A stretch of DNA of 64,000 nt from Psychromonas sp. SP041 (lineage in GTDB: Bacteria > Pseudomonadota > Gammaproteobacteria > Enterobacterales > Psychromonadaceae): contig NZ_CBRF02000002.1 of the NCBI RefSeq assembly GCF_000470315.2, forward strand, positions 186,001 to 250,000, given 5' to 3'. Made by a program: the position numbers and the translations under genes. A model generated the notes under the pieces. The model saw only the letters and a list, made by a program, of their open reading frames with translations. It had not been told where the DNA came from and did no database searches. Shown in pieces: positions 2,977 to 56,700 of the stretch. Positions within the stretch are counted from its first letter, which is position 1; each line of letters starts with the position of its first letter.

Positions 2977-4422
<1,446 letters not shown>

Positions 4423-4610
4423 TCAATCCTCCATGGTAGTGCCGATATTGCACTTTTTAAAATAGTTAAGATGCTAAAAGTGGGTTGCTGCATCTCGATG
4501 AAATATTTTTTATCGTCATCGGTTACAAAAAATCTTTTATAACCATTATTTTTATAACGATAAATATGTCTCTTTATGCGGTTGCAATTAACAAGCCAAT
4601 AACAAACTAG

Positions 4611-4626
4611 TTGACCAATTGGACTA
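4611..4626. promoter_or_regulatory. Putative RutR-type operator
   Basis: The site TTGACCAATTGGACTA matches 12 of 14 defined positions of the E. coli RutR operator TTGACCANNTGGTCAA (consensus recalled, not searched). The left half is perfect. It lies about 190 bases upstream of the hydA start, in the divergent control region. A RutR-like regulator is encoded nearby. Confidence 0.6.
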
Positions 4627-4850: not shown

Positions 4851-4866
4851 CTGTCCTGTTGGTCAG
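4851..4866. promoter_or_regulatory. Putative weaker RutR-type operator
   Basis: The site CTGTCCTGTTGGTCAG matches 10 of 14 defined RutR-operator positions, with the right half best preserved. It lies 70 bases upstream of the amidohydrolase start, where a repressor could block its promoter. Support comes mainly from the stronger sites nearby. Confidence 0.4.
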
Positions 4867-4936
4867 TATTTTGCATTATGTTTAATTGATTATGTTTTTT
4901 GGAATGTAGATTAATTCAACTTTATTGGAGTCAATC

Positions 4937-6166
4937 ATGGAAGCTTTAAAAATTAATAGTGATCGTCTATGGGATAGTTTGATGGAAATGGCGAAAATAG
5001 GCGGTACAGTAAAAGGTGGTTGTTGTCGTTTAGCCTTAACTGATTTAGATAAACAAGGAAGGGAACTCTATATAAAGTGGGCTGAGGAAGCTGGCTGTAC
5101 TGTTAAGGTTGATGCCATTGGCAATATAATGTGTACGCGTCCTGGTGAAGATATGAGTTTACCGCCAGTAGGCACAGGCAGTCACCTCGATACACAACCG
5201 ACCGGTGGCAAGTTCGATGGGGTTTATGGTGTGTTATCGGGTTTAGAAGTAGTGCGTTCAATGAACGATCAAGGCATTAAAACTAAGCATCCCATCGAAA
5301 TATCTGTCTGGACAAATGAAGAAGGCTCTCGATTCGCGCCAGCGATGATGGGCTCTGGTGTCGTATCAGGACGTTTTACCCTTGAAGAAATTTTAGATAA
5401 AACTGATGTAGATGGGTTACGTTTAGGTGATGAATTGGAACGTATAGGCTTTGCTGGTGAAACACCTGTGACAGGGCGCGACTTCCATGCCTTTTTTGAA
5501 GCACATATCGAGCAAGGGCCGTACCTAGAAGCAGAAGAAAAACAAGTCGGTATCGTGACAGGTGGACAAGGGCAACGTTGGTATAATGCAACCTTCATGG
5601 GCCGTGAATCACATGCAGGTACTACACCGATGCATTTACGTAACGATGCATTAATTGCCAGCTCACAATTGGTATTGAAGGTAGAGGAAATTGCTAAAGC
5701 ACATCCTCCAGGTTGTGGCACTGTTGGATTCATGCAAGTTACCCCTAATTCCCGTAATACCATTCCGGGTTCAATTTCTATGAGTATTGACTTACGCCAT
5801 CCTATTGATGGTGAGTTAACCTTGATGGATAAAGCATTAACAGAAGCAATCGCTGAAATTGAAGCCACTGGTGTTTCTGTGGAATTGGACCCATTTTGGT
5901 ATTACGAGCCTATTCACTTTAACACTGAATGTGTAAGTGCAGTGCGTAAAGCCGCTGCTGACTTGGGCTACAGCCACATGGATATTATTGCTGGCGCTGG
6001 GCATGATGCTTGTTATGTCTCTGATTTCGCACCAACAAGTATGATTTTCACGCCATGTTTAAATGGGATTAGCCATAATGAAATTGAAAGTACAACACAA
6101 GAAGAGTGTGAGGGGGGCTGTTCAGTTTTACTTAATGCGATGCTGACAATGGCAGAAGTGGTGTAG
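4937..6166 (+). CDS. N-carbamoyl-beta-alanine amidohydrolase (M20 family hydantoinase/carbamoylase)
   Basis: This 409-residue enzyme should hydrolyse N-carbamoyl-beta-alanine to beta-alanine, CO2 and ammonia, step 3 of the pathway. It belongs to the M20/allantoate-amidohydrolase family with two metal ions. Visible ligands are GSHLDTQ, the Asp of GGKFDGVYG, NEEGSRF, HIEQGP and the final His in AGAGHDA. The ATG at 4937 is preceded by TTGGAG at good spacing; an in-frame TTG 12 bases upstream overlaps that ribosome site and is unlikely. Allantoate or N-carbamoyl-L-amino acid hydrolase activity cannot be excluded from sequence. The adjoining dihydropyrimidinase and PreTA make the beta-ureidopropionase role most likely. 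Confidence 0.88.
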   Translation: MEALKINSDRLWDSLMEMAKIGGTVKGGCCRLALTDLDKQGRELYIKWAEEAGCTVKVDAIGNIMCTRPGEDMSLPPVGTGSHLDTQPTGGKFDGVYGVLSGLEVVRSMNDQGIKTKHPIEISVWTNEEGSRFAPAMMGSGVVSGRFTLEEILDKTDVDGLRLGDELERIGFAGETPVTGRDFHAFFEAHIEQGPYLEAEEKQVGIVTGGQGQRWYNATFMGRESHAGTTPMHLRNDALIASSQLVLKVEEIAKAHPPGCGTVGFMQVTPNSRNTIPGSISMSIDLRHPIDGELTLMDKALTEAIAEIEATGVSVELDPFWYYEPIHFNTECVSAVRKAAADLGYSHMDIIAGAGHDACYVSDFAPTSMIFTPCLNGISHNEIESTTQEECEGGCSVLLNAMLTMAEVV

Positions 6167-6279: not shown

Positions 6280-6930
6280 TTAAAGTAACTTCACACCACA
6301 GCCTTTTAATACGACCTGCGTGATCAATTCTGCTCCTGTTTCAAAATCACTTTCTTCTAATTCAGTTTTGCCCATCAAAATACTGCTTTGTAGACCATAG
6401 TCAGCATATGCTTGGGTTGATGACCAGATCATAAATAATAGATGCTCCGGACTGATTGGGTTCATCCATTGTTTTGCTATCCATTCTCGAAATACCTGAC
6501 AGGTTTTCATGAATTGATCTTTTAAGTCTGTTTGTAGCTTTTCACGTAAGAAAGGTGCGCCGTGTAGAAGCTCTGAAGCAAAGATACGTGATGCATTTGA
6601 GTGATCTTTAGACTGTTTTACTTTGAGTATAATGTAGTGTCTAAGCGCTTCCCTTGGGTGTTGATCTGCACTCATCCCCTCCATATCCACTAACCAAATT
6701 TTTAAAATTTGAATTAAGACTTCTTTATATAGCACTTCTTTTGTTTTGAAATAATAGAGAATATTAGACTTTGGCAACTGTGCTTGTTCTGCAATAGATG
6801 AAATAGTGGTGCCATTATATCCATATTCAGCAAAGCGTTGTTCTGCGACAGACAGAATAAGCTGCAGATTATCTTTACGAATATCTGCTGATTTACGACG
6901 TGTGGTACTGACTTTTTTATTTTCTTTCAT
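6280..6930 (-). CDS. rutR: TetR-family regulator, RutR-like (pyrimidine-responsive)
   Basis: This 216-residue DNA-binding regulator has an N-terminal helix-turn-helix at about residues 37-58 (TTISSIAEQAQLPKSNILYYF). It resembles E. coli RutR beyond the HTH: NILYYFKTKEVLYKEVLIQI followed by LKIWL, and the C-terminal HLLFMIWSSTQAYADYG, which in RutR forms part of the uracil/thymine pocket. RutR senses uracil/thymine and controls pyrimidine use, so I infer the same ligand here. It converges with the amidohydrolase gene and diverges from preT across 305 bases that contain a 12/14 RutR-type site. No rut monooxygenase genes are visible; here the regulator sits with the reductive pathway instead. 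Confidence 0.85.
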   Translation of the reverse strand: MKENKKVSTTRRKSADIRKDNLQLILSVAEQRFAEYGYNGTTISSIAEQAQLPKSNILYYFKTKEVLYKEVLIQILKIWLVDMEGMSADQHPREALRHYIILKVKQSKDHSNASRIFASELLHGAPFLREKLQTDLKDQFMKTCQVFREWIAKQWMNPISPEHLLFMIWSSTQAYADYGLQSSILMGKTELEESDFETGAELITQVVLKGCGVKLL

Positions 6931-7118: not shown

Positions 7119-7134
7119 TTGACCCCGTGGTCAG
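7119..7134. promoter_or_regulatory. Putative RutR-type operator upstream of preT
   Basis: The site TTGACCCCGTGGTCAG matches 12 of 14 defined positions of TTGACCANNTGGTCAA and is itself nearly palindromic. It lies about 115 bases upstream of preT and 190 bases upstream of the divergent regulator gene, so it could serve both control and autoregulation. Confidence 0.65.
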
Positions 7135-7235
7135 TTAGTTGGCTTGCTGATTGCATTGTCTTAATTGTAACTCAAACGTAAATGAACACTTAGACACTGG
7201 CTGATCATTAATTACCAACAGGAGAGATCATCGTG

Positions 7236-8645
7236 ATGAATATGGACAATTCAGTAAATTATTCGCAGCAACAACTGGCATTAAATCAAATGTTTAAAGA
7301 TATTAACCCCGCCCTCAGTGCCCGCCAAGCCGGCATTGAAAGTTCTCGTTGTTATTATTGCTACGATGCTCCCTGCATTAAAGCTTGCCCATCTAAAATT
7401 AATATCCCTAGTTTTATCGCTAGTATACACGCAGATGACCTGACGGGTGCTGCAAAAACCATTTACAAAGAAAATATAATGGGCGGCAGTTGTGCGCGAG
7501 TTTGTCCTACTGAAATTCTTTGCGAACAGGCTTGTGTTAGAAATAAAGAAGAAGAGAAAGCCCCAGTAAGAATTGGTTTGTTGCAACGTCACGCAACCGA
7601 TAATGCTGAATTCGATGGGCATCCTTTTGAACGTGCAGCATCGACAGGTAAAAGAATCGCGGTAGTGGGTGCAGGACCCGCAGGCTTAAGTTGTGCTCAT
7701 CGTTTGTCATTATTAGGTAATGATGTAGACGTCTTTGAAGCCGAAGATAAAGCCGGCGGTTTAAATGAGTACGGTATCGCTAAATATAAATTGACTGAAA
7801 ACTTTGCACAAAAAGAAGTTGATTTCATTTTAAGTATTGGCGGTATCACTGTGCACTATGAAACGGCATTAGGTAGAGATATTACCCTCGATAAATTAAA
7901 AGAAGATTTCGATGCTGTGTTTTTAAGTATTGGTTTACAAGACACATCATCATTGTATTTAGATAACGAAGATAATGAGATGGTGATTAACTCAGTTGAT
8001 TACATTAAAGAGCTACGTCAAGCAACGGATCTCAAACAGTTAGACATTCCCAAAGATAGTGCGGTTGTTATTGGTGCTGGTAATACAGCAATTGATATCG
8101 CATGTCAGTTAAAACGTTTAGGCACAGAAGAAGTGACGTTGGTTTACCGTCGTGGTGAAGAGCAAATGAGTGCAACAAAGCATGAGCAACAAATTGCTAA
8201 GAATCATCAAGTCAGAATCAAAACATGGAGCCAGCCAGAAAGTATCGATGTCGATGATAACGGTAAAGTCACAGGCATGAGCTTTCGTAAAACCTATTTA
8301 GAAGATGGCAAGCTTAAGGGCGGTGATGTGCAGTTTGATGTTGCGTGTAGTGCGATTTTTAAAGCGGTAGGTCAAAAAATGGCTTACCCAGAAACTGAGC
8401 AATTAATTCCTACTATTAGTAACGGAAAAATTGCCACTTTCCATAATCAATTAACCAGTGTCGATGGCGTGTTTGCTGGTGGAGATTGTACTGGTGTGGG
8501 ACAAGACCTCACCGTTGAAGCTGTACAGCAAGGAAAGCTAGCAGCAATCGCGATTAATGAGCAACTTAATGCCTCAATCACTACACCGACTACATCAACT
8601 ATTGCACCAATTAATGCTGCACTTAATAAAGCACTTAGTGCATAA
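7236..8645 (+). CDS. preT: NAD(P)-dependent dihydropyrimidine dehydrogenase subunit PreT
   Basis: This flavoprotein passes electrons between NAD(P)H and PreA, which reduces uracil/thymine. It is 469 residues long. The N-terminal Cys-rich iron-sulfur region (CYYCYDAPCIKACPS near residue 40, and CARVCPTEILCEQAC) precedes an FAD-binding GAGPAGLSCAHRL (about residue 150). A second nucleotide-binding GAGNTAIDIACQL follows (about 285), and FAGGDCTG lies near the C-terminus. Translation could begin at GTG 7233 or ATG 7236; AGGAGAG at 7220-7226 suits either. preA follows after 14 bases, consistent with the known PreTA heterodimer. Confidence 0.93.
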   Translation: MNMDNSVNYSQQQLALNQMFKDINPALSARQAGIESSRCYYCYDAPCIKACPSKINIPSFIASIHADDLTGAAKTIYKENIMGGSCARVCPTEILCEQACVRNKEEEKAPVRIGLLQRHATDNAEFDGHPFERAASTGKRIAVVGAGPAGLSCAHRLSLLGNDVDVFEAEDKAGGLNEYGIAKYKLTENFAQKEVDFILSIGGITVHYETALGRDITLDKLKEDFDAVFLSIGLQDTSSLYLDNEDNEMVINSVDYIKELRQATDLKQLDIPKDSAVVIGAGNTAIDIACQLKRLGTEEVTLVYRRGEEQMSATKHEQQIAKNHQVRIKTWSQPESIDVDDNGKVTGMSFRKTYLEDGKLKGGDVQFDVACSAIFKAVGQKMAYPETEQLIPTISNGKIATFHNQLTSVDGVFAGGDCTGVGQDLTVEAVQQGKLAAIAINEQLNASITTPTTSTIAPINAALNKALSA

Positions 8646-8659
8646 CAGGGAGAAATAAC

Positions 8660-9934
8660 ATGGCTGACTTATCAATTGACTTCGTAGGTATTAAATCTCC
8701 TAATCCATTTTGGCTGGCATCAGCGCCGCCAACAGATAAAGCGTATAACGTTGAACGTGCCTATGAAGCAGGGTGGGGGGGAGTGGTATGGAAAACATTA
8801 GGTGAAGACCCAGCAGCGGTAAACGTGTCTTCTCGTTACTCTGCTCTTTACGACCATAACGGTGATGTCTCAGGTTTTAATAATATTGAATTAATCACCG
8901 ACCGTAGTTTAGAAATCAATTTACGTGAAATTACAGAAGTTAAAAAGCGCTGGCCAGATCGCGCATTAGTGGTGTCTTTGATGATGCCCTGTGAAGAGCA
9001 AGTCTGGAAACGTATTCTTAAACTGGTTGAAGCAACGGGGGCGGATGGTGTTGAGCTCAACTTTGGTTGTCCGCATGGTATGCCTGAACGTGGTATGGGT
9101 GCGGCTGTTGGACAAGTCCCTGAATACGTTGAAATGGTCACTCGATGGTGTAAACAGCACAGTAACATGCCAGTGATTGTTAAATTAACACCGAATATTA
9201 CCGATGTACGTCTTCCTGCTCGTGCTGCTAAAAGCGGTGGTGCGGATGCTGTTTCTTTAATTAATACTATCAATTCAATCACTGGTATCGACCTTGATGC
9301 GATGTCTGCGCGTCCGATGGTGGATGGTAAAAGTACCCATGGTGGTTATTGTGGTCCAGCGGTCAAACCGATTGCGCTGAGTATGACCAGTGAGATTGCA
9401 CGTGACCCTGAAACAGCTGGTCTGCCAATTTCTGGTATCGGTGGTATTGGCAACTGGAAAGATGCGGCTGAGTTTATTGCATTGGGTGCGGGCTCTGTTC
9501 AAGTATGTACGGCAGCGATGATTTACGGATTTAACATTGTTCAAGAAATGAAAGAAGGTCTATCAAATTGGATGGACAGTAAAGGTTATGAAAATATCAA
9601 TGATTTTAAAGGTTTAGCGGTACCCAATACAACGGATTGGAAAAAGCTCAACATGAACTACAAAGTGGTTGCAACTATTGATGAAGATAAATGTATTGGT
9701 TGTGGTCGTTGTTATCAAGCCTGTGAAGATACGTCGCATCAAGCTATTACGGTGACGTCTAATGATGATGGCACCAACACCTTTGGCATTATTGATGATA
9801 ACTGTGTGGGATGTAATTTATGTGAAATTACTTGCCCAGTTGATGATTGTATCACTATGGATGAACGTTCAACGGGTCAGCCATATATGAACTGGATGGA
9901 AGATGTGCGTAACCCTCATAGAGAAGAAGCATAA
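8660..9934 (+). CDS. preA: NAD-dependent dihydropyrimidine dehydrogenase subunit PreA
   Basis: This catalytic subunit reduces uracil and thymine to their 5,6-dihydro forms, the first step of the locus. The 424-residue protein has an FMN-binding DHOD-type TIM barrel, with the conserved ELNFGCPHGMPERGMGAA loop holding the catalytic Cys and a C-terminal phosphate site around GIGGIGNWKDAAEFIALGA. A C-terminal ferredoxin domain carries two 4Fe-4S motifs, CIGCGRCYQAC and CVGCNLCEITC. The usual length and both clusters are present. It is translated from a start 14 bases after preT with AGGGAG upstream. Confidence 0.95.
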   Translation: MADLSIDFVGIKSPNPFWLASAPPTDKAYNVERAYEAGWGGVVWKTLGEDPAAVNVSSRYSALYDHNGDVSGFNNIELITDRSLEINLREITEVKKRWPDRALVVSLMMPCEEQVWKRILKLVEATGADGVELNFGCPHGMPERGMGAAVGQVPEYVEMVTRWCKQHSNMPVIVKLTPNITDVRLPARAAKSGGADAVSLINTINSITGIDLDAMSARPMVDGKSTHGGYCGPAVKPIALSMTSEIARDPETAGLPISGIGGIGNWKDAAEFIALGAGSVQVCTAAMIYGFNIVQEMKEGLSNWMDSKGYENINDFKGLAVPNTTDWKKLNMNYKVVATIDEDKCIGCGRCYQACEDTSHQAITVTSNDDGTNTFGIIDDNCVGCNLCEITCPVDDCITMDERSTGQPYMNWMEDVRNPHREEA

Positions 9935-44971: not shown

Positions 44972-45114
44972 TAAAACATTAAGCCTACAATCTATTTTCT
45001 ATAACCTATTTTCTACAATATTGCTGATAACCGTTCTCAATAGTAGAGTAGCAATCAGCATTTTTCTTATTTTTAATGATTCACTTTTAATGATTTATTT
45101 TCAATTATTTACTT

Positions 45115-45720
45115 TTAACTTTTAATAAATAATTCAGGGTTAATAGAAGGATAAGCAAATGATTTATGTTGCTGAATCTCTTCAAGTGACAAACCTTGTA
45201 ATTCATAGGGAAAAACGACCCAGTCATCAGTCGCATTCACAAAATAATCTGGACCGCTATTTTCAGGTAATGATGCTTTCTTCCAGACCGTTGCAATTCT
45301 CACATCAGCAGGCATATTACGTTTAAGCCTTGCTTTGAGTTCGTTAATCACCGCATCTGCATTTTTTCCTGAACGGTACATGTCATCAACGATCAGTAAC
45401 TTATCATCAGCATTTAACTTTTTAACTAAATAAGTTAATCCGTGTACATGGATAGGTTGATCGCCATCAGCTTGTTGATGATAACTATCAACACCACCGT
45501 ATGACGTTCGAATAGAAATATGGTCGGTTTGTACACCGAGGGTCTGTAAACATTCTTGTACATAGATACCAACTGAACTACCGCCGCGCCATAAACCCAC
45601 AATAAAGGTTGGTTTAAAGTCACTAGCCATAATTTGCGTTGCTAGCTGAAATGACTCCTCGATTAACGTATCTTCATCTAAAAATATTTTTTCACCATAT
45701 TTAGCCAAGAAATCACCCAT
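45115..45720 (-). CDS. Phosphoribosyltransferase-family protein with altered PRPP loop
   Basis: This 201-residue type-I PRTase-fold protein is a clear paralogue of the divergent neighbour; both share SDFKPTFIV, WRGG, VHGL, YLVK and NMP.DVRIA. The PRPP loop reads LIVDDMYRSGKN, where active enzymes have DDVYDTGRS; the D-T-G is replaced by R-S-G, so catalysis may be weakened or the substrate changed. Hypoxanthine/guanine-type transfer is suggested by similarity. It has no strong ribosome site. The pair lies head to head across 107 bases and is probably co-regulated. Confidence 0.8.
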   Translation of the reverse strand: MGDFLAKYGEKIFLDEDTLIEESFQLATQIMASDFKPTFIVGLWRGGSSVGIYVQECLQTLGVQTDHISIRTSYGGVDSYHQQADGDQPIHVHGLTYLVKKLNADDKLLIVDDMYRSGKNADAVINELKARLKRNMPADVRIATVWKKASLPENSGPDYFVNATDDWVVFPYELQGLSLEEIQQHKSFAYPSINPELFIKS

Positions 45721-45827
45721 TTAATATGTTATGTTTGCAGGATTTTGAATCAAAAAATTAGAACATAAAGAAGATTTTTATTCAATCTTTAGTGGCACTA
45801 TCTTTAATGTTTTTACTTGGAACTAAC

Positions 45828-46406
45828 ATGGCTGATAAACAATATTTAACTGCGCAAAACCTATTAGAAGATTCTTATGCATTAGCTCGTAATATTCTAG
45901 ATAGTGACTTTAAACCTACTTTTATTGTTGCTGTTTGGCGTGGTGGAGCACCAATTGGTATAGCGGTTCAGGAATTTCTCGCTGTTCACGGTATTCAATC
46001 TGATCATATCGCGATTAGAACATCTTCGTATGCTGCTGCAATTGATCAACAGCAGAAAGAAGTTAAAGTGCACGGTTTAAACTACTTAGTTAAGAACCTT
46101 CAGCACCATGATAAGTTATTATTAGTTGATGATGTTTATGATACGGGCCGCTCTATCGAAGCTATTATTAAAGAGCTACATAGAAAAACCAGATTGAATA
46201 TGCCAGAAGATGTCAGAATTGCAGTGCCTTATTACAAGCCTTCACGTAATCAAACAGATCGTGTGCCTGATTATTATCTACATGAAACAGATGCTTGGTT
46301 AAAATATCCACATTCGTTAGAAGGGTTGTCAGCAGAAGATATCGCTGTGAAACGTCCTCGTTTATATGAAATTATTAAAGACTTCTTGCCAGCTACAAAT
46401 CAATAA
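45828..46406 (+). CDS. Hypoxanthine-type phosphoribosyltransferase
   Basis: This 192-residue cytoplasmic enzyme transfers phosphoribose from PRPP to a purine base, probably hypoxanthine or guanine. The PRPP loop is canonical (LLLVDDVYDTGRSIEAII), and the flexible WRGGAPIGIAVQEFL and DHIAIRTSSY motifs match the small PRTases of Vibrio-like bacteria. I chose ATG 45828, which has GGAAC upstream, not a start 36 bases earlier. Divergently paired with a paralogue whose PRPP loop is altered. It could salvage purines released by the extracellular nucleotidase set downstream. Confidence 0.85.
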   Translation: MADKQYLTAQNLLEDSYALARNILDSDFKPTFIVAVWRGGAPIGIAVQEFLAVHGIQSDHIAIRTSSYAAAIDQQQKEVKVHGLNYLVKNLQHHDKLLLVDDVYDTGRSIEAIIKELHRKTRLNMPEDVRIAVPYYKPSRNQTDRVPDYYLHETDAWLKYPHSLEGLSAEDIAVKRPRLYEIIKDFLPATNQ

Positions 46407-46537
46407 ATAGTTTATTAAATTGCACTTGTAATTAATCAAGTGCAATCACTTTCATTTAAAATAACTTAATTTTGAAACCCTCTAACAGGTATTGGCTACT
46501 TTATTCAATAAAACACATTCGATACCCATTACCGTTC

Positions 46538-46835
46538 AAGCTAACGGACCAGAGGGTAATACCAAAAGAATTAATAAGGAGATCATTCTTGCTGGTTAAA
46601 ATCCCCCCTAACTGCGTTGTGAGTTTTGAAGTGAGAACAACTATCTCCTACAACTCACGCCTTATTAGTGTTAATTTTTCCTGCGCAATTTCTGATCACT
46701 TATTTAATTCCATTGGTATAAGCTTTGAAGTAAACACCTTTGTTGTTACAAAATGTCGATTTAATCCGTTAGATCTTCCTCTTTCTGCCTAGCATCTTTT
46801 CGCATCACCGCTTACTGAATTTCGCTCCTTGAATG
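46538..46835 (+). repeat. Dispersed repeat C, copy 2 (split by a MITE)
   Basis: The two parts, 46538-46556 and 46719-46835, together match the uninterrupted copy at 16369-16504. The family A element at 46560-46718 splits them, so this copy is older than the insertion. Confidence 0.75.
46560..46718 (+). mobile_element. MITE-like element, family A, copy 4 (inserted in repeat C)
   Basis: This 159-bp copy has both terminal inverted repeats intact. TAA flanks both ends (46557-46559, 46719-46721). Comparison with the unfilled repeat C at 16369-16504 shows one TAA-like triplet (CAA) where this copy has TAA-element-TAA, which is the direct sign of a three-base target duplication. Confidence 0.9.
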
Positions 46836-47029
46836 GTCACGGATATGTATACGCCATTAACTTCTTTTTTATAGCTTGTTCATCATTCCTCTATTTAAAA
46901 TACCTCATTGAATTTGTCTGAATATTGTTATTTTTTTACATTTCTCATAACTTTTTTATGAATCAAAGGTCATTTTTATGTTTTTTGTAAAATCTTAAAA
47001 AAAGAGAGAGCACCAATACAGAGCAATTA

Positions 47030-47045
47030 CTGACCTTTTGGTCAA
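47030..47045. promoter_or_regulatory. Putative RutR-type operator upstream of the 5'-nucleotidase gene
   Basis: CTGACCTTTTGGTCAA matches 12 of 14 defined positions of TTGACCANNTGGTCAA, with a perfect right half and inner symmetry TGACC-GGTCA. It lies about 258 bases upstream of the nucleotidase start. It is far from the pyrimidine locus but has the same quality as the site before preT. Confidence 0.5.
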
Positions 47046-47302
47046 TATGTAGGTGCCCCCTTGTCTTTGATAGTGCTTACTTAACAAATAAAATCATGCC
47101 TTTAGACTGTGCAATATCTTCAAAGAAGGGCATTATTAGCACCAAAAAAGAGCAATTAAATAATATGAAATAAGATTACTTGCTATTGATTTCTATTGTC
47201 ATTTATAAGATGGTGTATTGAAAAATGGATTATTTGTAATATAAAAGTCACATAAACATGTGATCATATAAGACTATTTATTGAATTTAAAGGATTAGAT
47301 CT

Positions 47303-48952
47303 ATGAATAATAAACGCTTCATTGTGGCGAGCATTGCGTCTCTAATATTGACCGGATGTTCAACTCTCTCATCGACCACCACCACTCAGCAAAAATGGCT
47401 GCAAGATAAAGAATATAACCTCACTATTCTTCATACCAATGATAACCACGGACACTTTTGGCAGAATAAATATGGTGAGCGTGGCATGGCTGCACGTGCA
47501 ACGTTAGTTAATCATATCCGTGCTGAAGTCGAGTCTGCTGGTGGTTCTGTATTGTTACTGTCTGGTGGAGATATTAATACTGGTGTACCAGAGTCAGATC
47601 TTTTAGATGCTGAACCTGATTTTATTGGCATGAATATGATTGGTTATGATGCGATGGCGGTCGGTAACCATGAATTTGATAATCCTTTGGATGTACTTGC
47701 TAAGCAAGCGGATTGGGCAAATTTTCCCTTTCTTGCTGCCAATATATACAAAGATGGTAAACGTATGTTTGATGCTTACAAAATCTTTGATAAAGATGGC
47801 GTTAAAGTCGCTGTTATTGGTTTAACCACAGAAGACACTGTTAAAATTGGTAATCCAGAATTCATTAAAGATATGCAATTTACTGACCCCAAAGTCGAAG
47901 CTAAATTGGTGATTGCTGAACTTAAAGCCAAATATAATCCTGATATCATTATTGCAGCTACACACATGGGGCATTATTTAAATGGTGACAACGGGTCGAA
48001 TGCACCGGGCGATGTTCAATTAGCGCGTTACCTTGATGAAGGTTCTCTCGATATGATCGTAGGTGGCCATTCTCAAGAACCTGTTTGTATGGAAGGTGTG
48101 AATGTATATGCAGACTTTAAAGCAGGACAAACCTGTAAACCGGATATCCAAAATGGAACCTATATTGCACAAGCACATGAATGGGGTAAATATGTAGGGC
48201 GTGCGGATTACACATTTAAAAATGGCGAGCTTGAACTACAGTCTTACAATCTTATTCCTGTTAATTTAAAGAAAAAAGTAACAGACGCTGACGGTAATAA
48301 AACACGTGTGTTTATTCAAGATGAAATCCAACAAAATGAAACCGTATTCAACACACTAAAACCATTCCAAGAAGAAGGACAGGCGGCTTTAAATATTGTG
48401 ATTGGTAGTAGTAATGGATTACTACAAGGAGAGCGAAAAGTTGTTCGTAATAATCAAACTAACTTAGGTCGCTTGATTGCTACAGCCCACATGCAACGTG
48501 CTCAAGCTGATTTTTCTGTTATGAATTCTGGCGGTATTCGTGCTTCGATTGAAGCGGGTGATATTTCTTATAAAAGTGTTTTAACGGTACAACCGTTTGC
48601 CAATACGATCACTTATGTCGATATGACAGGAGTTGAAGTGGTTAGTTACCTTAATCAGGTTGCAACAAAAAGCAAAGATTCTGGTGCTTATGCACAATTT
48701 TCAGGTATTACAATGACGGTTGCTGACATGCAGGTTAGCAATATTGTTATTGGTGATAAACCGATTGATTTAAATCGTACTTATCGTTTTACCGTTCCAT
48801 CATTTAATGCTGCTGGTGGCGATGGTTATCCAAAGCTCTCTGAGCATTCCTCTTATGTTAATACCGGTTATGTCGATGCGGAAGTTTTAAAGGATTTTAT
48901 CCAACAAAACTCGCCGATTAATATTGCTGATTTCATACCTAAAAATGAATGA
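47303..48952 (+). CDS. nutA: 5'-nucleotidase lipoprotein, UshA/NutA-like
   Basis: This 549-residue surface or periplasmic lipoprotein hydrolyses 5'-nucleotides (and possibly UDP-sugars) to nucleosides and phosphate. The lipobox is ILTGC (about Cys19). The N-terminal metallophosphatase domain shows ILHTNDNHGHFWQ, LSGGDINTG, GNHEFDNP and GGHSQEP. The C-terminal nucleotide-binding domain contains NSGGIRASIEAGDISY and FNAAGGDGYP. The fit to Vibrio NutA is good, including the lipoprotein form. It starts the extracellular nucleic-acid set, and the porin follows after 198 bases. Confidence 0.92.
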   Translation: MNNKRFIVASIASLILTGCSTLSSTTTTQQKWLQDKEYNLTILHTNDNHGHFWQNKYGERGMAARATLVNHIRAEVESAGGSVLLLSGGDINTGVPESDLLDAEPDFIGMNMIGYDAMAVGNHEFDNPLDVLAKQADWANFPFLAANIYKDGKRMFDAYKIFDKDGVKVAVIGLTTEDTVKIGNPEFIKDMQFTDPKVEAKLVIAELKAKYNPDIIIAATHMGHYLNGDNGSNAPGDVQLARYLDEGSLDMIVGGHSQEPVCMEGVNVYADFKAGQTCKPDIQNGTYIAQAHEWGKYVGRADYTFKNGELELQSYNLIPVNLKKKVTDADGNKTRVFIQDEIQQNETVFNTLKPFQEEGQAALNIVIGSSNGLLQGERKVVRNNQTNLGRLIATAHMQRAQADFSVMNSGGIRASIEAGDISYKSVLTVQPFANTITYVDMTGVEVVSYLNQVATKSKDSGAYAQFSGITMTVADMQVSNIVIGDKPIDLNRTYRFTVPSFNAAGGDGYPKLSEHSSYVNTGYVDAEVLKDFIQQNSPINIADFIPKNE

Positions 48953-49150
48953 TTTATTTAATAAAGATAAATTCCAATCAATATTTAATAATAAAAAGTA
49001 TCAATTAATCAGTTACATATAACTGTCATAAACGCATGATAATTTCATACGCATTATGGTTATCGAGCTTTAAAAATTCATTTAAATTATTAGTAATACC
49101 TAATTATAGTAATACATTAAGACAAATAACATTCAATTAAGGATTATAAA

Positions 49151-50230
49151 ATGTTAAAAAAATCAACGCTATGCATCGCACTATCAACCATTTTGGCCGG
49201 GGCTACGGCACAAGCCGCAACCATTTATGAAAAAGAAAATGGTGACAATCTGAAAGTCTATGGTGAAGTCGGTGTCGGTGGACATATTGGTGCCGATTAT
49301 GAATATGGTGAATTTTATACGGATGATAAATCATATATCGATGACAGTTTTGCAACACTGGGCCTGAAAGGTGAATACGAGGATATTTATTACCGATTAG
49401 AGGTTGATTATGAACGTGAAAATTGGGCATACGGCTCAGGTGATTTGGAATTAACAATAGATAAATTATTTATCGGCTATAAGTTTTATAAAAATCATGC
49501 AATTGAAGTCGGATTAACCGACACCGCATTAGATGATTACGATAAATATGGAGACTTTACTTTCGATACAACGGTTGAAACTGGCGAAGCTGGCGATCAA
49601 GAAAATACGATTAAATATGAAGGTTCTTTTTCTGATTTTAAAATGGGCCTTTCTTATTCTTATGAAGGTGAAAGTTCATCTGGCTCTGAATTAGGCGACA
49701 TTATTAATGGTTATGTTGGTTACTTCAGTGATTATGTTGATGTGGTGATTGGGGCTGAAGCACGCAGTGGCTCAGAAGGTATTTCTAAGTACGGAGGGCA
49801 AAAACTTTTCTCTTTAGGCCTACGTGCCTACATTACGGATGATTTCGCTATCGGTTTAAATGGTTATATTGAAAATGAAGATATTGCACAAACGAGCACG
49901 GTTATTTCTATTAGTAATAGCTTTGAAAAAACAAGCTCTTATAACAATTACCAAACACTTAAGAATCAAGGTGGATTAGTTTCAGCTCGTTACACTTTAA
50001 ATAAAAAAGTTGAATTTACTGGTTCATTAAATTACGAAGAATATGAAATTTGGGATATTAACAGCACTTATGGTGTTTCGCCTGATAGTGAATTCTCATG
50101 GGGTAAAGAGCGAATTTGGGGGACGTTAGGTGTTAATTTCAAACCAACAAGTTCTGTTATTTTTGCATTGGAAGGCAACTTTGGTGAAGCAGCACAAGAT
50201 GCTTATGCATACGCTCGTGTTTATTTCTAA
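49151..50230 (+). CDS. Outer-membrane porin-like beta-barrel protein
   Basis: This 359-residue protein has a cleavable signal peptide (to ATAQAA, about residue 23). The mature part has alternating aromatic beta strands and ends in YARVYF, with the C-terminal Phe typical of outer-membrane barrels. LKVYGEVGVGGHIGADYEYG and the GLKGEYEDIYYRLEVDYE region resemble gammaproteobacterial trimeric porins. It is acidic overall. It lies between a 5'-nucleotidase and an extracellular nuclease, so it may admit nucleosides, nucleotides or phosphate; this is inferred. The nuclease gene follows after 46 bases. Confidence 0.82.
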   Translation: MLKKSTLCIALSTILAGATAQAATIYEKENGDNLKVYGEVGVGGHIGADYEYGEFYTDDKSYIDDSFATLGLKGEYEDIYYRLEVDYERENWAYGSGDLELTIDKLFIGYKFYKNHAIEVGLTDTALDDYDKYGDFTFDTTVETGEAGDQENTIKYEGSFSDFKMGLSYSYEGESSSGSELGDIINGYVGYFSDYVDVVIGAEARSGSEGISKYGGQKLFSLGLRAYITDDFAIGLNGYIENEDIAQTSTVISISNSFEKTSSYNNYQTLKNQGGLVSARYTLNKKVEFTGSLNYEEYEIWDINSTYGVSPDSEFSWGKERIWGTLGVNFKPTSSVIFALEGNFGEAAQDAYAYARVYF

Positions 50231-50276
50231 TTAGCTATAAAACTTAAAAAATAAAAGAAAATTGAAGGATCAAATA

Positions 50277-53200
50277 ATGAATAAGAATTTAAATAAAAGT
50301 CTATTAGCATTAGCAATAAGCGGTATTTTATCGAGCCATGCTAGCGCCGCAATAACCGATATTATTATCAGTGAATATTTAGAAGGTTCGGGTGATAATA
50401 AAGCGATAGAATTAACTAATACTGGCACAAGTAATTACACCTTCCCAAGCAATATCGAATTGCAATATAGTTCTTATAATAATCAAGTTCGTAATCCTGC
50501 TGGTGACAACGTACTTGAAGGTGTCACGATTCCCGCTAATTCAACATTAGTTATTTATAACAGTGGGGCAGATATCGCATTATCAGAAGCCATTGCAAGC
50601 AGTGCAACAAGTGTTATTGCTGCCACGTACGATGAACAATCATTTAATAGCTTAAGTTTCAACGGTGATGACAAAGTCTCTCTTATCAATACTGATACTA
50701 ATACTACCTACGATATTATCGGTATAGATGGAACTTATTGGGGATCTGGACAAACATTGCGCCGTAGATTTGTCGAGGGAAATGCAATACCGACTCAATC
50801 ATCAATCTACAAAGCAGCAGATTGGGAAGACTTTGGTGAAGATGTATATGATGATCTAGGAACGGCAACTTACTCAGAATATCAAGACGTTGTTGCTTCT
50901 ACATGTGCGTTAGATACGCAAACCACGATCGCAGAAGTGCAAGGTGCAGGTACATCTTCTCCATTGATCACAAGTGGTTTTACCACTGCAGAATCTTACA
51001 ATGTCACAGGTATTGTGACGGCTGTAACGACTTACCCTGAAAAAGGGTTTTATATGCAAGATGTTGTGCCAGATGGCGATGAACTGACCTCTGATGGTAT
51101 TTTTGTTAGCACTGCTAATGCAAGTGACGACATGATCGGTACTACTGTTTGTGTCACAAGTACGGTCACTGAATCTTATAATTTAACGCAACTTGAGACT
51201 GATGAATGGGATACCGTTGATGCAACATCGTCGGTACCAACTGCAACGGATATTGAAATTATCGCGGCAGATGGTGAGTCATTTAATGCAACATTAGAGC
51301 GTTATGAAGGTATGTTAGTTAATTTACCTGAAGATATTGATGCCAACACGAGTGGCAATCAAGATATGCGCGTATCTAAAACATTCGGGTTTAATTACGA
51401 TACATTCCGTAACGATATGAGCCTATCTTTCCAACGCCCTAACGTAAATCCGACGCAAGACAATGTACCTGGTAGTGATGACGCTTTAGCAGCTGTTGCT
51501 GAAAATAATGACTATCGTTTAGTGGTTGAAAGCAGTACAAGGGCCGCCGACGGTGAAATTCCTTATTATTCGAGCTTTAGCTCAGATCCTGCTAATAATT
51601 ATATTCGTGTTGACGATAGTGTTATCGGAATGGAAGGGGTGATCACCTATAGCTACAGTAACTTTAATCTAGTGGTTACCAATGAGTTATATAACAACAA
51701 CTTTGTACATAATACAGATAGACGCTCATCACCAGATTTAAGTACAACCACTGAAAATGGTCATTTTTCTATTACAGTTGGAACGAAAAATGTATTAAAT
51801 CTATTTAACTCGCCATACGGTGGAGAGACTAACTCACATGGTGAAAACCGTGGTGCAGATGACGAAGCTGAATACCAAAAACAATTAGCTAAGTTAGTGT
51901 CTGCTATTACAGGTCTAGACGCTGATATTGTAGGCTTAATGGAAATTGAGAATAACGGTTTTGGCAACGACAGTGCTATTCAAGCATTTGTTGATGCGAT
52001 TAATGAAGAATATTACGACGAAGACCCTAAAGATGAAGATAGTGCGGTATCTACAAGTAACCGTTACGTTTTTGTTGGATATGACTCTAACGGTGACTTA
52101 GTACTTGATGAGTCTGATTCTTTAGGCTCAGATGCTATCACGACGGGATTATTATACCGTCCATCTAAAGTCAGCATTGAAAGCATGAGCGTTATCTCTA
52201 TGCCAGAACAGCACGCACCCGTTGTGGTGAATAGTGCTAATACGGTCATGAAAGATAGCAGTGGTGCCGTACTTGAAAGTGGTGATAACTATCAACGTGA
52301 AACAATCGCCGCTACCTTTAAAGTTAACAATACAGGCAAAACATTAACGGTTGCTGTTAACCACTTCAAATCTAAAGGTTCAACTTGTTGGGAAGAATGG
52401 GATGGTGTTGAATTTGGTGATGAAAGCACATGGTCAGATGATGCCCCAGATGAAGATTTACAAGGTGCTTGTGAAAACCTACGTGTTGCCGCAGCTGTAC
52501 AGCTAGGTGAAGAGCTTGAAGACCTAGGTGGTGACCGTATTATTGTTGGTGATTTAAATTCTTACGGTCAAGAAGATCCTCTTTTAGTGTTAACTGAAAA
52601 TATAACAGGTAAAACCATTACTACTGCTCGTGATACGTTCATTGGTGATAAACCTCAGTTTACAGTGGCTGGTACCCCTCAAGAAATAACTAAAACCTAT
52701 GGTTACATCAATACTATTGCCTTAAAAGATGCAGAAAAAGGCCAATCAAGTTGGAGTTATTCTTACAATGATGAAATTGGTTCTCTTGATCATATTTTAA
52801 TTAGTACTTCATTAGAAACTCGTTTAATCGATGCAGTTGATTGGCACATTAATGCACCTGAATCTTCTTTATTTGACTACAACACTGAATATAAAGGTGA
52901 TGATTATGAGAACTTCTATGTTGATGACGAGTACCGTTCATCGGATCACGATTCAGCGATTATGTCATTAAGCTACGAATATGGAGAAGTGGGAGAAGGC
53001 GAGCCTGTTTACCTTACCATTAGCAGCAGTGCGGTCGATGTGCCTTATGTGCTTGAAGAAGGTGCTTTAATTGGTGATGTTGCACAAATTCAATTGTCTT
53101 CATCAACAGATATGAGCGATGTAGTTCTCCCTAATGTCACGATTACTGAAGATAACCAATCATTGGTTGAAATTGAAGTTTATGGCCTAGATGCAGGAAA

Positions 53201-53411
53201 TTACACTGCAAAAATGACATTAATACGCGACGCAGAAGTGATGTCAGAGTTTACAAAAACAATGTCCTTTGAAGCAGCGTCTAAAGATTCTACGACAACG
53301 AGTGTTGCGCCTGCAGAAGAGTACGATGGTTCAGGTGGTGGTTCATTCAGTATATTTGGCCTTATCTCATTACTAGGCTTAGGTTTTTTACGTCGTTATA
53401 AAGCGCAGTAA
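50277..53411 (+). CDS. ExeM/NucH-type extracellular nuclease with GlyGly-CTERM
   Basis: This 1044-residue secreted nuclease degrades extracellular DNA. Domains in order are a signal peptide (to SHASAA, about 25), a lamin-tail domain (about 26-150, IIISEYLEGSGDNKAIELTN), an OB-like region (about 215-310) and an endonuclease/exonuclease/phosphatase domain (about 500-905: GLMEIENNGFG, VNHFKSKG, VGDLNSYGQEDPL, SDHDSAIM). The C-terminal sorting signal is GGGSFSIFGLISLLGLGFLRRYK, noted here by its start GGGSFSIFGLISLLGLGF and the basic RRYK end. The start at 50277 follows AAGGA. GlyGly-CTERM proteins are processed by rhombosortase and exported by type II secretion, so those must lie elsewhere. Confidence 0.92.
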   Translation: MNKNLNKSLLALAISGILSSHASAAITDIIISEYLEGSGDNKAIELTNTGTSNYTFPSNIELQYSSYNNQVRNPAGDNVLEGVTIPANSTLVIYNSGADIALSEAIASSATSVIAATYDEQSFNSLSFNGDDKVSLINTDTNTTYDIIGIDGTYWGSGQTLRRRFVEGNAIPTQSSIYKAADWEDFGEDVYDDLGTATYSEYQDVVASTCALDTQTTIAEVQGAGTSSPLITSGFTTAESYNVTGIVTAVTTYPEKGFYMQDVVPDGDELTSDGIFVSTANASDDMIGTTVCVTSTVTESYNLTQLETDEWDTVDATSSVPTATDIEIIAADGESFNATLERYEGMLVNLPEDIDANTSGNQDMRVSKTFGFNYDTFRNDMSLSFQRPNVNPTQDNVPGSDDALAAVAENNDYRLVVESSTRAADGEIPYYSSFSSDPANNYIRVDDSVIGMEGVITYSYSNFNLVVTNELYNNNFVHNTDRRSSPDLSTTTENGHFSITVGTKNVLNLFNSPYGGETNSHGENRGADDEAEYQKQLAKLVSAITGLDADIVGLMEIENNGFGNDSAIQAFVDAINEEYYDEDPKDEDSAVSTSNRYVFVGYDSNGDLVLDESDSLGSDAITTGLLYRPSKVSIESMSVISMPEQHAPVVVNSANTVMKDSSGAVLESGDNYQRETIAATFKVNNTGKTLTVAVNHFKSKGSTCWEEWDGVEFGDESTWSDDAPDEDLQGACENLRVAAAVQLGEELEDLGGDRIIVGDLNSYGQEDPLLVLTENITGKTITTARDTFIGDKPQFTVAGTPQEITKTYGYINTIALKDAEKGQSSWSYSYNDEIGSLDHILISTSLETRLIDAVDWHINAPESSLFDYNTEYKGDDYENFYVDDEYRSSDHDSAIMSLSYEYGEVGEGEPVYLTISSSAVDVPYVLEEGALIGDVAQIQLSSSTDMSDVVLPNVTITEDNQSLVEIEVYGLDAGNYTAKMTLIRDAEVMSEFTKTMSFEAASKDSTTTSVAPAEEYDGSGGGSFSIFGLISLLGLGFLRRYKAQ

Positions 53412-53556
53412 TAACTGAATTTGAATCTAATCATTATAACGATAGCACTTACATTAATTGCGCTTTTACATTAGTTGAAAATACGCTTGTTGTAAGTGCT
53501 GTTGTTTTTATGATGATTAACCATCAATGATTAAATGGAATTTAAAGAGAGATATA

Positions 53557-55524
53557 ATGGATAATAAATTAAAAAAAACAGCACTATGTTTATTGGTGCT
53601 CGGAAGCCTTACTGCTTGTAATAGTAGTGATGATACATCAACGGTTTCTAGTAACGATTATATAACGGCAGTTCAAGCTACTGAAGAAGTTGAAGAAACG
53701 GTAGAAGATGCAAGCGAAGATAATGACTCAACAGTCACAGACGGTAATTTATTACTGAATAGTGATTTTGAAAGTTGGACAGATGGACTGCCTGACGGTT
53801 GGACCATCATTGATGATGGGATTAGTGTTGCACAGAGTACGAGTATTTATTATACAGGCGAAACTGCAACGTTTGCTGTTGGTGAAAATTCAGCAGCAAT
53901 AACTGTCACAACTGAAGTGCAAGGCGATACTGATTTCCGTCAATCAATTGATGTTGTTTCTGGCACAACTTACTTGTTTAGCACATGGATATATCATACG
54001 GAAGGGATGGTTAGTGCTCGACTTTATGTTGATGGTTACCAAGGATATTCTGATGCCGATCTAGTTAATCAATGGCAAGAAGTAACTTATAGCTATACGG
54101 CTGATGAAGATAAAAATATTGAAGTCGGATTACGTTTTTATGACCAAACGGGTTTTGATGGTGAGGAAATTGTTTATGTTGATAATTTCTCATTCTCATC
54201 TGATGGCGAGGAAACGATAACTGATGACACTGTGGAAGAAATAGTTGATGAAGTGAACGTTGAAGAAGAGACGACGGACAAGAACCGTGTAGATGATTCT
54301 AATGGTAATTTATTAGTTAATGGTGGTTTTGAAAGTTGGTCTACATCTTTACCTGATGAATGGACAACTATCGACAGCGACGTTAGTGTTTCACAAAATA
54401 CGACTATTTATAATGAAGGAGCATCTTCTGCAGAAATATCAGTTAACAGTGGTTCACAGGGTGACACTGATATTCGCCAATCGATTGATGTTACTGAAGG
54501 CATAACGTATAGCTTTTCAACGTGGGTTTATCATACAGAGGGCTTAATAAAAGCACGTTTATATATCGGTACTGAATATGCGACTTATTCAGATAATACT
54601 ATTTTAAATGCATGGCAAGAGGTGACTTATAGTTACACTGCCGCCGCTAGTGGCAGTATCGAAGTTGGGATTCGTTTTTACGATCAAACTGGATATGTTG
54701 ATCCTGAAATTGTTTATATTGATGATTTCTCAGTAAGCTCAGACAGCAGCTCTAATACAAGTGAGTACTATGCAAGTGCTGCGGATTTAACGGGTCTTGA
54801 GTTAAAAACAGCACTGTATAATATTATTAAAGACCATACGACTAAAACTTATAGTAACTTATGGGACTTTATGGGCACTAATTCTTTAGATGTTTATTAT
54901 GAAAATGATGGCACTATTTTAGATATGTATTCTGAAAACCCATCAAGTTCTGATACTTATAATTATACGCCAGTGACTGATCAGTGTGGTAATTATTCTG
55001 GTGAAGGTAGTTGTTATAATCGTGAACACTCTTTCCCGAAAAGTTGGTTTAATGACGACTACCCAATGTACACAGATATCCACCACCTTTTTGTAACGGA
55101 TGGTTATGTGAACGGTAAACGTAGTAATTACCCTTATGGTGTTGTTGGTACAAGTACATTTGTATCAGACAATGGTAGTAAAGTTGGCTCTGCAAGTAGT
55201 GATTTAGGTTACTCTGGTACGGTATTTGAGCCGATTGATGAGTTTAAAGGTGATTTTGCTCGTGCTTACTTCTACATGGCAACACGTTATGAAGATATCA
55301 TTTCTACATGGGAAGTTAACTCTGATTCTGCAGATGCTGTGTTAGATAGCAGTTCAGATTATGTGTTTGAAGAGTGGGTTATTACTATGCTGAAAAGTTG
55401 GAATGAGAATGATCCTGTGAGTCAAAAAGAGTTAGACCGTAATGAAGCGGCTTATGAGTTCCAAGGAAATCGTAATCCATTTATCGATCATCCTGAATAT
55501 GTTAGTGAAATTTGGGCTGATTAA
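53557..55524 (+). CDS. Endonuclease I lipoprotein with two duplicated N-terminal modules
   Basis: This 655-residue exported lipoprotein (lipobox SLTAC, about Cys22) has two successive modules of about 150 residues (about 63-215 and 248-402). They share NLL.N..FESW, LPD.WT, GDTD.RQSID, YHTEG, WQEVTYSYTA and FYDQTG, a carbohydrate-binding-like fold pattern. The C-terminal endonuclease I domain (about 425-655) has NREHSFPKSWFND, DIHHLFVTDGYVNGKRSNYP and RNPFIDHPEYV, like secreted EndA/NucM enzymes. It is probably a cell-surface DNase/RNase. ATG 53557 has AGAGAG upstream. It ends at a strong hairpin terminator. Confidence 0.9.
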   Translation: MDNKLKKTALCLLVLGSLTACNSSDDTSTVSSNDYITAVQATEEVEETVEDASEDNDSTVTDGNLLLNSDFESWTDGLPDGWTIIDDGISVAQSTSIYYTGETATFAVGENSAAITVTTEVQGDTDFRQSIDVVSGTTYLFSTWIYHTEGMVSARLYVDGYQGYSDADLVNQWQEVTYSYTADEDKNIEVGLRFYDQTGFDGEEIVYVDNFSFSSDGEETITDDTVEEIVDEVNVEEETTDKNRVDDSNGNLLVNGGFESWSTSLPDEWTTIDSDVSVSQNTTIYNEGASSAEISVNSGSQGDTDIRQSIDVTEGITYSFSTWVYHTEGLIKARLYIGTEYATYSDNTILNAWQEVTYSYTAAASGSIEVGIRFYDQTGYVDPEIVYIDDFSVSSDSSSNTSEYYASAADLTGLELKTALYNIIKDHTTKTYSNLWDFMGTNSLDVYYENDGTILDMYSENPSSSDTYNYTPVTDQCGNYSGEGSCYNREHSFPKSWFNDDYPMYTDIHHLFVTDGYVNGKRSNYPYGVVGTSTFVSDNGSKVGSASSDLGYSGTVFEPIDEFKGDFARAYFYMATRYEDIISTWEVNSDSADAVLDSSSDYVFEEWVITMLKSWNENDPVSQKELDRNEAAYEFQGNRNPFIDHPEYVSEIWAD

Positions 55525-55570
55525 TTCTATTGTGATTCCAGATTCATTATAAGATTAATACGATGATAAA

Positions 55571-55625
55571 AGCGTTACCTTTTAGCGAAGGCTCTGGTGA
55601 AAGGTAACGTTTATTTTTATTTTTA
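55571..55625 (+). terminator. Terminator after the endonuclease I gene
   Basis: A 10-bp stem CGTTACCTTT/AAAGGTAACG (55573-55582, 55600-55609) with a 17-base loop is followed by TTTATTTTTATTTTT. Confidence 0.75.
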
Positions 55626-55799
55626 AGCTTGGCAGATTCAAGCTTGAATAATGATAGTTAATATTAATTTATTTCACTCTGCTTAGCATGATAAAAAGCC
55701 TCTTCTGCACGCAATAAATATCAAGTAATAGATGTATAACATGTTAATATTTAACGGTTATACCTTGTCTCTTATCAATTACACTCTCCTGGAGAAAAA

Positions 55800-56633
55800 A
55801 TGAAGAACCTTTCTAAAAACCTATTAGGTCTTGCAATCGTCGTTGCATTCACTTCGACATCTTTTGCCGCTGATAAGCCATTTACGGCTAAAAATTTAAA
55901 TGACGAGTCAGTTTTAGCCCTTTCATGGGTACAAAACTCAGCTGAATTTACCGCGCTTTCTTACCAAGCATTTAATTTTGCTAAATTAAGATGGGACATG
56001 GATAAACAAGATGGTAAAAAAGCAATTGTTGTTGATGTTGATGAAACTATCATTGATAACAGCCCTTATAACGGCGGTTTAATTGGTAAAGATTATGGTT
56101 ATAGCGGCGATACATGGAAAGCTTGGAGTGAAGATAAAAGTGCAACTGCATTACCTGGTGCTGTCGCTTTTCTGAATCATGTTGTTGAAACCGGTGGTGA
56201 CGTTTTTTATGTGACGAACAGAAAATCAATGCCTGAGAAAAACATGGACTTGAAACCATCAACCATGGAAAACTTAAAGGCATTAGGGTTTCCACAGATT
56301 GATGATAAACACATGATGCTTAGAACCAGCACATCAGAAAAACAAGAACGACGTGATAGTATCACTGCGATGGGGTATAAAATTGTTTTACTCATGGGTG
56401 ATAACTTGGGCGATTTTGATGTTGCTTTTGAAGGTAGCACAATGGCAAGCAGAGCGAAGGCTGTTGAAGATCATAAAGCTATTTTTGGCGATAAGTTCAT
56501 TGTTTTACCAAACCCAACTTATGGAGCATGGGAAGCTGCGGTTTATGGTGGCGGTGAATGGTATAAAAAATCAGCACAAGAAAAGTCTGAACTTAGAAAG
56601 AGTACATTGAGAAAGTTTGAATTTGAAAAATAA
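55800..56633 (+). CDS. Acid phosphatase / 5'-nucleotidase, lipoprotein e(P4) family (HAD class C-like)
   Basis: This 277-residue exported phosphatase has the HAD signature DVDETIIDN (about 79-87), catalytic Asp pair DxD, and a later MGDNLGDFDVAF (about 198-209) in the style of class C acid phosphatases. Haemophilus e(P4) is a surface lipoprotein, but here the signal peptide (to TSFAADK) has no lipobox Cys, so it is likely soluble periplasmic. It would remove phosphate from nucleotides such as NMN or AMP. GGAG lies about six bases before the ATG. It continues the nucleic-acid scavenging set and ends at a convergent terminator. Confidence 0.87.
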   Translation: MKNLSKNLLGLAIVVAFTSTSFAADKPFTAKNLNDESVLALSWVQNSAEFTALSYQAFNFAKLRWDMDKQDGKKAIVVDVDETIIDNSPYNGGLIGKDYGYSGDTWKAWSEDKSATALPGAVAFLNHVVETGGDVFYVTNRKSMPEKNMDLKPSTMENLKALGFPQIDDKHMMLRTSTSEKQERRDSITAMGYKIVLLMGDNLGDFDVAFEGSTMASRAKAVEDHKAIFGDKFIVLPNPTYGAWEAAVYGGGEWYKKSAQEKSELRKSTLRKFEFEK

Positions 56634-56660
56634 AGTATCAACTGTTAGTTTTTAATTATT

Positions 56661-56694
56661 AATTGTTAATCGCTCATTGAGCGATTAATCAATT
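56661..56694. other. Near-perfect palindrome between two convergent genes
   Basis: TTAATCGCTCA and its complement, separated by a single T, form an almost perfect palindrome with AATT flanks. It precedes the terminator at 56701-56744. Confidence 0.5.
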
Positions 56695-56700
56695 CAAATT

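Follow-up and report, generated by a model that had tools for sequence, protein, structure and literature searches.

The window considered here is the whole 64,000-nucleotide stretch of the Psychromonas sp. SP041 genome that was analysed. It carries a candidate regulatory site upstream of ushA, which is found in five Psychromonas genomes: SP041, G019, G020 (Psychromonas sp. 2B2-76), G018 (Psychromonas sp. 14N.309.X.WAT.B.A12), and G014 (Psychromonas sp. B3M02). The features of the ushA region in SP041 are as follows:

47010 to 47024, plus strand: NtrC-like box GCACCAATACAGAGC, separated from the operator by 5 bases; invariant across the five genomes at 14 of 16 columns
47030 to 47045, no strand: predicted RutR-family operator CTGACCTTTTGGTCAA, with the exact core TGACC-N4-GGTCA
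47139 to 47153, plus strand: second NtrC-like box GCACCAAAAAAGAGC, whose second half is not conserved in G018 or G014
47202 to 47217, plus strand: conserved block TTTATAAGATGGTGTA, a putative promoter part; 12 of 16 columns invariant
47303 to 48952, plus strand: ushA, 5'-nucleotidase / UDP-sugar hydrolase (NF007109, 875 bits against a cut-off of 600)
49151 to 50230, plus strand: putative outer-membrane protein (nothing in Pfam; YgjJ matched weakly, below cut-off)
50262 to 53411, plus strand: ExeM/NucH-type extracellular nuclease (NF033681, above cut-off)
53527 to 55524, plus strand: Endonuclease I domain protein with a carbohydrate-binding domain (PF04231, PF02018)
55800 to 56633, plus strand: lipoprotein e(P4)-type 5'-nucleotidase (TIGR01533, above cut-off)

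The association of ushA with the outer-membrane protein, the nucleases, and the e(P4)-type 5'-nucleotidase indicates a cluster for nucleic-acid feeding. The N-terminal start of UshA reads as a lipoprotein-like signal. An Rfam scan of positions 45000-56700 gave no match. Two divergent genes with phosphoribosyltransferase domains (45115-45720 and 45792-46406) adjoin the cluster, and a gene that by eye resembles the first of them adjoins the pyrimidine locus of G007 (L098:7512-8000). In G019, G020, G018, and G014 (L175:1146-2774 and L176-L178), a chemotaxis receptor gene, identified by Pfam in G019 only, lies between the phosphoribosyltransferase gene and ushA; the SP041 interval (46407-47302) has no match to it, flanking DNA only. 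A Pho-box-like repeat (49012-49040; 11 and 10 of 14 positions) precedes the outer-membrane protein gene; it recurs more weakly in G019, G020, and G018 and may be due to chance, since a match of 11 is reached at seven places in the window. Before ushA itself, the best Pho box matches 10 of 14 positions of what we take to be the consensus and is not kept across genomes.

The pyrimidine locus, where a RutR-like regulator (RutR1) is encoded, comprises:

2977 to 4422, minus strand: dihydropyrimidinase / D-hydantoinase (TIGR02033, above cut-off)
4583 to 4598, minus strand: sigma-54-like promoter TGGCTTGTTAATTGCA, directed at the dihydropyrimidinase gene (consensus matched at 10 of 12 positions)
4611 to 4626, no strand: RutR-type site before the dihydropyrimidinase gene (mismatch scan, matrix)
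4851 to 4866, no strand: weaker RutR-type site CTGTCCTGTTGGTCAG before the amidohydrolase gene (matrix score 15.1), overlapping a sigma-54-like motif at 4860-4875 (9 of 12)
4925 to 6166, plus strand: hydantoinase/carbamoylase-family amidohydrolase (NF006769, TIGR01879)
6280 to 6930, minus strand: RutR1, RutR-like TetR regulator (PF08362, PF00440)
7119 to 7134, no strand: RutR-type site before preTA (mismatch scan, exact core, matrix)
7140 to 7155, plus strand: sigma-54-like promoter TGGCTTGCTGATTGCA directly after the preTA site (10 of 12 consensus positions)
7233 to 8645, plus strand: PreT-like NAD(P)-binding partner of PreA, named from its position beside PreA; its matches are of the glutamate-synthase small-subunit type, below their cut-offs
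8660 to 9934, plus strand: PreA, dihydropyrimidine dehydrogenase subunit (NF006183, 708 bits against a cut-off of 335)

RutR1 exceeds the Pfam gathering scores for PF08362 (TetR_C_3, YcdC-like; 151 bits) and PF00440 (TetR_N; 44 bits). A paralogue, RutR2, 64% identical to RutR1, is encoded beside xanthine dehydrogenase (xdh) genes on contig C5 of SP041, so that one RutR stands beside pyrimidine genes and the other beside purine genes. Identity to E. coli RutR is 80/204 for RutR1 and 68/190 for RutR2. The E. coli protein is a TetR-family regulator with a palindromic binding sequence of approximately 16 bp, and its residues W77, Y97, W167, Q171, and Q179 contact uracil (PMC10891134). All five residues are kept in both RutR1 and RutR2, and so is K-x-N-x-L-Y-Y-F in the recognition helix. 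Scores against the NCBIfam RutR equivalogs TIGR03613 and NF011584 (cut-offs 368 and 230 bits) are 183 and 171 for RutR1 and 175 and 149 for RutR2; since these fall below both cut-offs, the two proteins are called RutR-like.

The original prediction was of a RutR-type site at 47030 as good as the best sites of the pyrimidine locus, and by mismatch count this holds: on the plus strand, CTGACCTTTTGGTCAA has two mismatches to TTGACCANNTGGTCAA, which we take to be the RutR operator consensus, and the sites at 4611 and 7119 likewise have two. The operator starts 273 bases before the ushA ATG, leaving 257 bases between operator and gene. Matches with up to three mismatches number 7 in the window, against 3.64 expected, and 7 were reached in 8 of 100 shuffles. 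A fourth two-mismatch match in the window lies within ushA itself, at 47348, 318 bases from the operator. In the whole SP041 genome there are 269 matches with up to three mismatches against 339 for the reversed control, and 30 with up to two, of which 19 fall inside reading frames and the other 11 are intergenic (places read singly, reading frames called mechanically). At this stringency there is no excess over the reversed control in G019 (22 vs 30), G020 (21 vs 30), or G018 (22 vs 21). The mismatch count was accordingly dropped as proof of an operator. By this measure a functionless chance match would seem plausible, as 30 genome places match equally well or better, 19 of them in genes, and the match at 47348 within a gene has the same count. 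The original prediction took many equally good coding matches as a sign against the site; mismatch counting does find them, but neither the exact core nor a matrix does.

The exact core occurs at three places in the 4.80-Mb SP041 genome, before preTA, xdh, and ushA, and base composition predicts 1.82. The number is ordinary; the placement at three nucleobase or nucleotide promoters is not. G019 and G020 also have three exact cores each, only at the preTA, ushA, and xdh promoters. G018 and G014 have four each, those of xdh and ushA plus two others, one within the same gene in both genomes and the other intergenic in G018 and coding in G014. In all, 13 of the 17 exact cores of the five genomes sit at preTA, xdh, and ushA promoters. 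G011 has a single exact core, before xdh, and four Psychromonas genomes that lack RutR have four in total, all coding. The core was chosen after the sites had been seen, which weakens it as a test; the matrix ranking and the upstream conservation are independent of that choice and stand apart from this weakness.

The matrix was built from 19 intergenic sites of the pyrimidine and xdh loci in six genomes, three of these sites being from SP041. It excludes ushA, coding sites, duplicate sequences, and the sites of G032, G007, G056, and the RutR3 loci. A genome scan with a matrix had been proposed with the original prediction, there with the 47030 site included. Among the 30 SP041 places, the ushA site ranks fourth and stands among sites of nucleobase genes (xdh 24.5, preT 23.7, uraD 22.0, ushA 20.3, dihydropyrimidinase 19.0). 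The xdh, preT, and dihydropyrimidinase sites rank high by construction, because all three are in the training set, while ushA and uraD are outside it. The best score below these five is 17.9, at a coding place. With its exact core and a score within the training range of 15.8-25.3, the operator resembles the palindromes found beside rutR genes. All five top sites recur at the same genes in G019 and G020. The coding match at 47348 scores 9.6 against 20.3 for the operator, which counts against chance as the source of the latter.

Upstream of ushA, the aligned DNA of SP041 and G018 is 51% identical, and 28% of the columns are invariant in the five genomes (final 45 columns at the start codon omitted). 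The operator window, with 13 of 16 columns invariant, and the preceding NtrC-like box are the two best blocks of the alignment. Retention of the operator block amid roughly half-identical DNA, with the exact core at the same promoter in five genomes, makes a functionless match very improbable. A conserved site of another regulator that shares the palindrome by coincidence is also improbable, if somewhat less so. Many TetR-type regulators recognise palindromes of such size, and the neighboring box is at least as conserved as the operator; elsewhere in the SP041 genome, however, the exact core is confined to two promoters that each lie close to a RutR gene, those of preTA and xdh. The placement of the exact cores, the matrix rank obtained with ushA left out of training, and the conservation in five genomes are the grounds on which the site is judged most likely a real RutR-family operator.

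The operator is found in 5/5 Psychromonas genomes with a near-type UshA and a RutR1 of at least 86% identity, and in 0/4 with a near-type UshA and no RutR (G001, which is 85% complete, G005, G009, and G016). In these four, UshA is 76-80% identical and there are only weak TetR-family matches to RutR1; their ushA clusters have different neighbors, so that the upstream DNA is not strictly comparable. In the UshA tree the five site-bearing proteins form one clade (99/98), and the co-occurrence with RutR therefore amounts to one event, a single gain that was then kept. Judged from the sequences, the history of the operator is one kept gain and not repeated co-evolution with RutR. Outside the genus, the site is lacking in G024 and G049, both of which encode a near-type UshA and, at 43% identity, a RutR-like protein; this counts against a simple rule. 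In G011, G007, G032, and G056, which have a RutR1-type protein and a UshA of about 65% identity, no site with up to three mismatches was found in the UshA loci. Among 30 named UshA loci, the exact core lies within 600 bases before the match in 3, all clade members; the remaining 27 include some RutR-less genomes, and 26 of them are testable, L135 having 1 upstream base. In G018 and G014, which each have two copies of UshA, the site search covered one.

The RutR-type sites beyond the window extend the predicted targets to purine breakdown. On contig C5 of SP041 (L076:1648-7952), the neighbors of RutR2 are xanthine dehydrogenase genes and one for a PnrA-like binding protein, and xdh is preceded by a perfect site. 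Some 15 kb further along (L179:1374-5607), another site has a nucleoside-type ABC transporter on one side and genes of urate breakdown on the other; this uraD site stands before the HIU hydrolase and urate oxidase genes. Since the predicted targets include xanthine dehydrogenase and urate breakdown, the link of ushA would be to nucleobase catabolism, not to pyrimidines alone. Other sites have been seen at transporter genes. In G032 (L211:1637-7159) and G056 (L212:1178-6585), a third RutR-like gene lies beside a two-mismatch site and an operon for an ABC transporter, the last gene of which is another of the 5'-nucleotidase family (Pfam check in G032 only). Here a nucleotidase may have become tied to a RutR relative a second time, independently. 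On contig C45 of SP041 (L213:5029 and 5103), two two-mismatch sites, 74 bases apart, precede an oligopeptide-type ABC transporter operon, and G019 has a one-mismatch version of this site (L214:4806).

The original prediction also held that, if the site is bound, one pyrimidine-sensing regulator would link outside nucleotide stripping with inside pyrimidine breakdown. The shared part is supported, as ushA appears to fall in one RutR-family site set with the pyrimidine genes, but "one pyrimidine-sensing regulator" is too narrow, because there are two RutR paralogues with uracil-contact residues and the predicted targets include purine breakdown. A narrower form of the shared-control reading assigns the operator to RutR2 alone, which would tie ushA to purine breakdown and make the originally proposed pyrimidine link inexact. 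All five site-bearing genomes have RutR2, its xdh sites are closest to perfect, and the SP041 ushA site shares more with the xdh sites (13-14/16 positions alike) than with the preT sites (11-12/16). However, RutR1 too is present in all five, ushA lies 38-46 kb from the RutR1 locus in the clade genomes that have both on one contig, and the G014 ushA site is at least as close to the preT sites (13-15/16) as to the xdh sites (13-14/16). The comparison of sites thus assigns neither RutR1 nor RutR2 to ushA, and control by RutR2 alone appears unlikely.

The boxes flanking the operator may connect it to nitrogen control. The exact sequence GCACCAANNNAGAGC occurs three times in the SP041 genome: twice before ushA, at 47010 and 47139, and once before glnA, where it lies 21 bases from a perfect GCACC-N5-GGTGC. 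Because the same motif is found near that perfect palindrome, the two boxes suggest NtrC. Each matches 8 of 10 positions of the NtrC consensus, a score reached nine times in the window; the NtrC and sigma-54 consensus words of these scans are those we presume to be correct. No GG-N10-GC sigma-54 promoter was found between the boxes and ushA, on the ushA strand, in any of the five genomes. A weak candidate on the minus strand (6-7/12) in SP041, G019, and G020 does not recur in G018 or G014 and was rejected. At the pyrimidine promoters, sigma-54-like motifs lie beside or over the RutR sites, with counterparts in G019, G020, G011, G018, and G014, and candidates are also found near the xdh and uraD sites; such motifs are not rare, the window having 21 at 9/12 or better and 5 at 10/12 or better. 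The sigma-70 scan gave 4 promoter-like sites against 5.0 in shuffles, an uninformative result. The conserved block TTTATAAGATGGTGTA is perhaps part of the ushA promoter.

From these comparisons, the site at 47030-47045 probably functions as an operator for a RutR-family (TetR) regulator, one that has ushA under its control along with nucleobase-breakdown genes. When bases are scarce inside the cell, RutR1 and/or RutR2 would occupy the site and keep ushA low. When bases arrive, the regulator would leave the site and more of the outer 5'-nucleotidase would be made, which would feed nucleosides to uptake and breakdown. The releasing base would be uracil or thymine for RutR1 and perhaps a xanthine-like base for RutR2; nitrogen shortage may be a further input, to judge from the two NtrC-like boxes. 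The operator lies 273 bases before the ATG with no promoter identified between, so repression by polymerase blocking is at most a candidate mechanism. In a broader form, which we put forward tentatively as somewhat less likely than not, the two paralogues, with the same operator and uracil-contact residues, would make up a single circuit that senses nucleobases, is linked to nitrogen control, and took over a secreted 5'-nucleotidase and so made outside feeding and inside breakdown one programme.

The proposed circuit resembles the E. coli RutR regulon (rutABCDEFG, rutR, and carAB) in having a TetR-family regulator, a palindrome of about 16 bp, uracil-contact residues, and a link, putative here, of pyrimidine breakdown to NtrC, the E. 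coli rut operon being dependent on NtrC (PMC10891134). It differs in having the reductive pathway (PreTA, dihydropyrimidinase) and two paralogues, and in its predicted targets, among which are xdh, genes of urate breakdown, and that of a secreted 5'-nucleotidase. The RutR regulogs of Proteobacteria, covering 68 genomes and 743 target genes, similarly place RutR over pyrimidine breakdown with lineage-specific gain of targets (PMC5343134). Unlike the present case, ushA is absent from the main text of that study; the supplementary tables or RegPrecise may list it. In Vibrio cholerae, secreted nucleases and UshA (UshA, CpdB, PhoX, Dns, and Xds) serve feeding on DNA and nucleotides (PMC9273947), a use described there as phosphate gain, whereas the sites here point to base breakdown and perhaps nitrogen. 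In the original prediction the coupling was not known to be described, and in line with this a literature search, within the text accessible to it, found no paper linking RutR or NtrC to ushA or xanthine. The predicted targets would be a new set for a known type of regulator.

A common switch on an outside nucleotidase and inside base breakdown suggests, from the arrangement of the sites, that nucleic-acid feeding is run as one programme. The RutR paralogue that has uracil-contact residues and yet stands beside purine genes merits separate study, and the pair offers a test case of how duplicated regulators with the same operator split purine and pyrimidine signals. If the proposal is true, some marine bacteria strip outside nucleotides according to the bases sensed inside, and dissolved DNA and nucleotides would be for them a source of bases and nitrogen, beyond phosphate alone.
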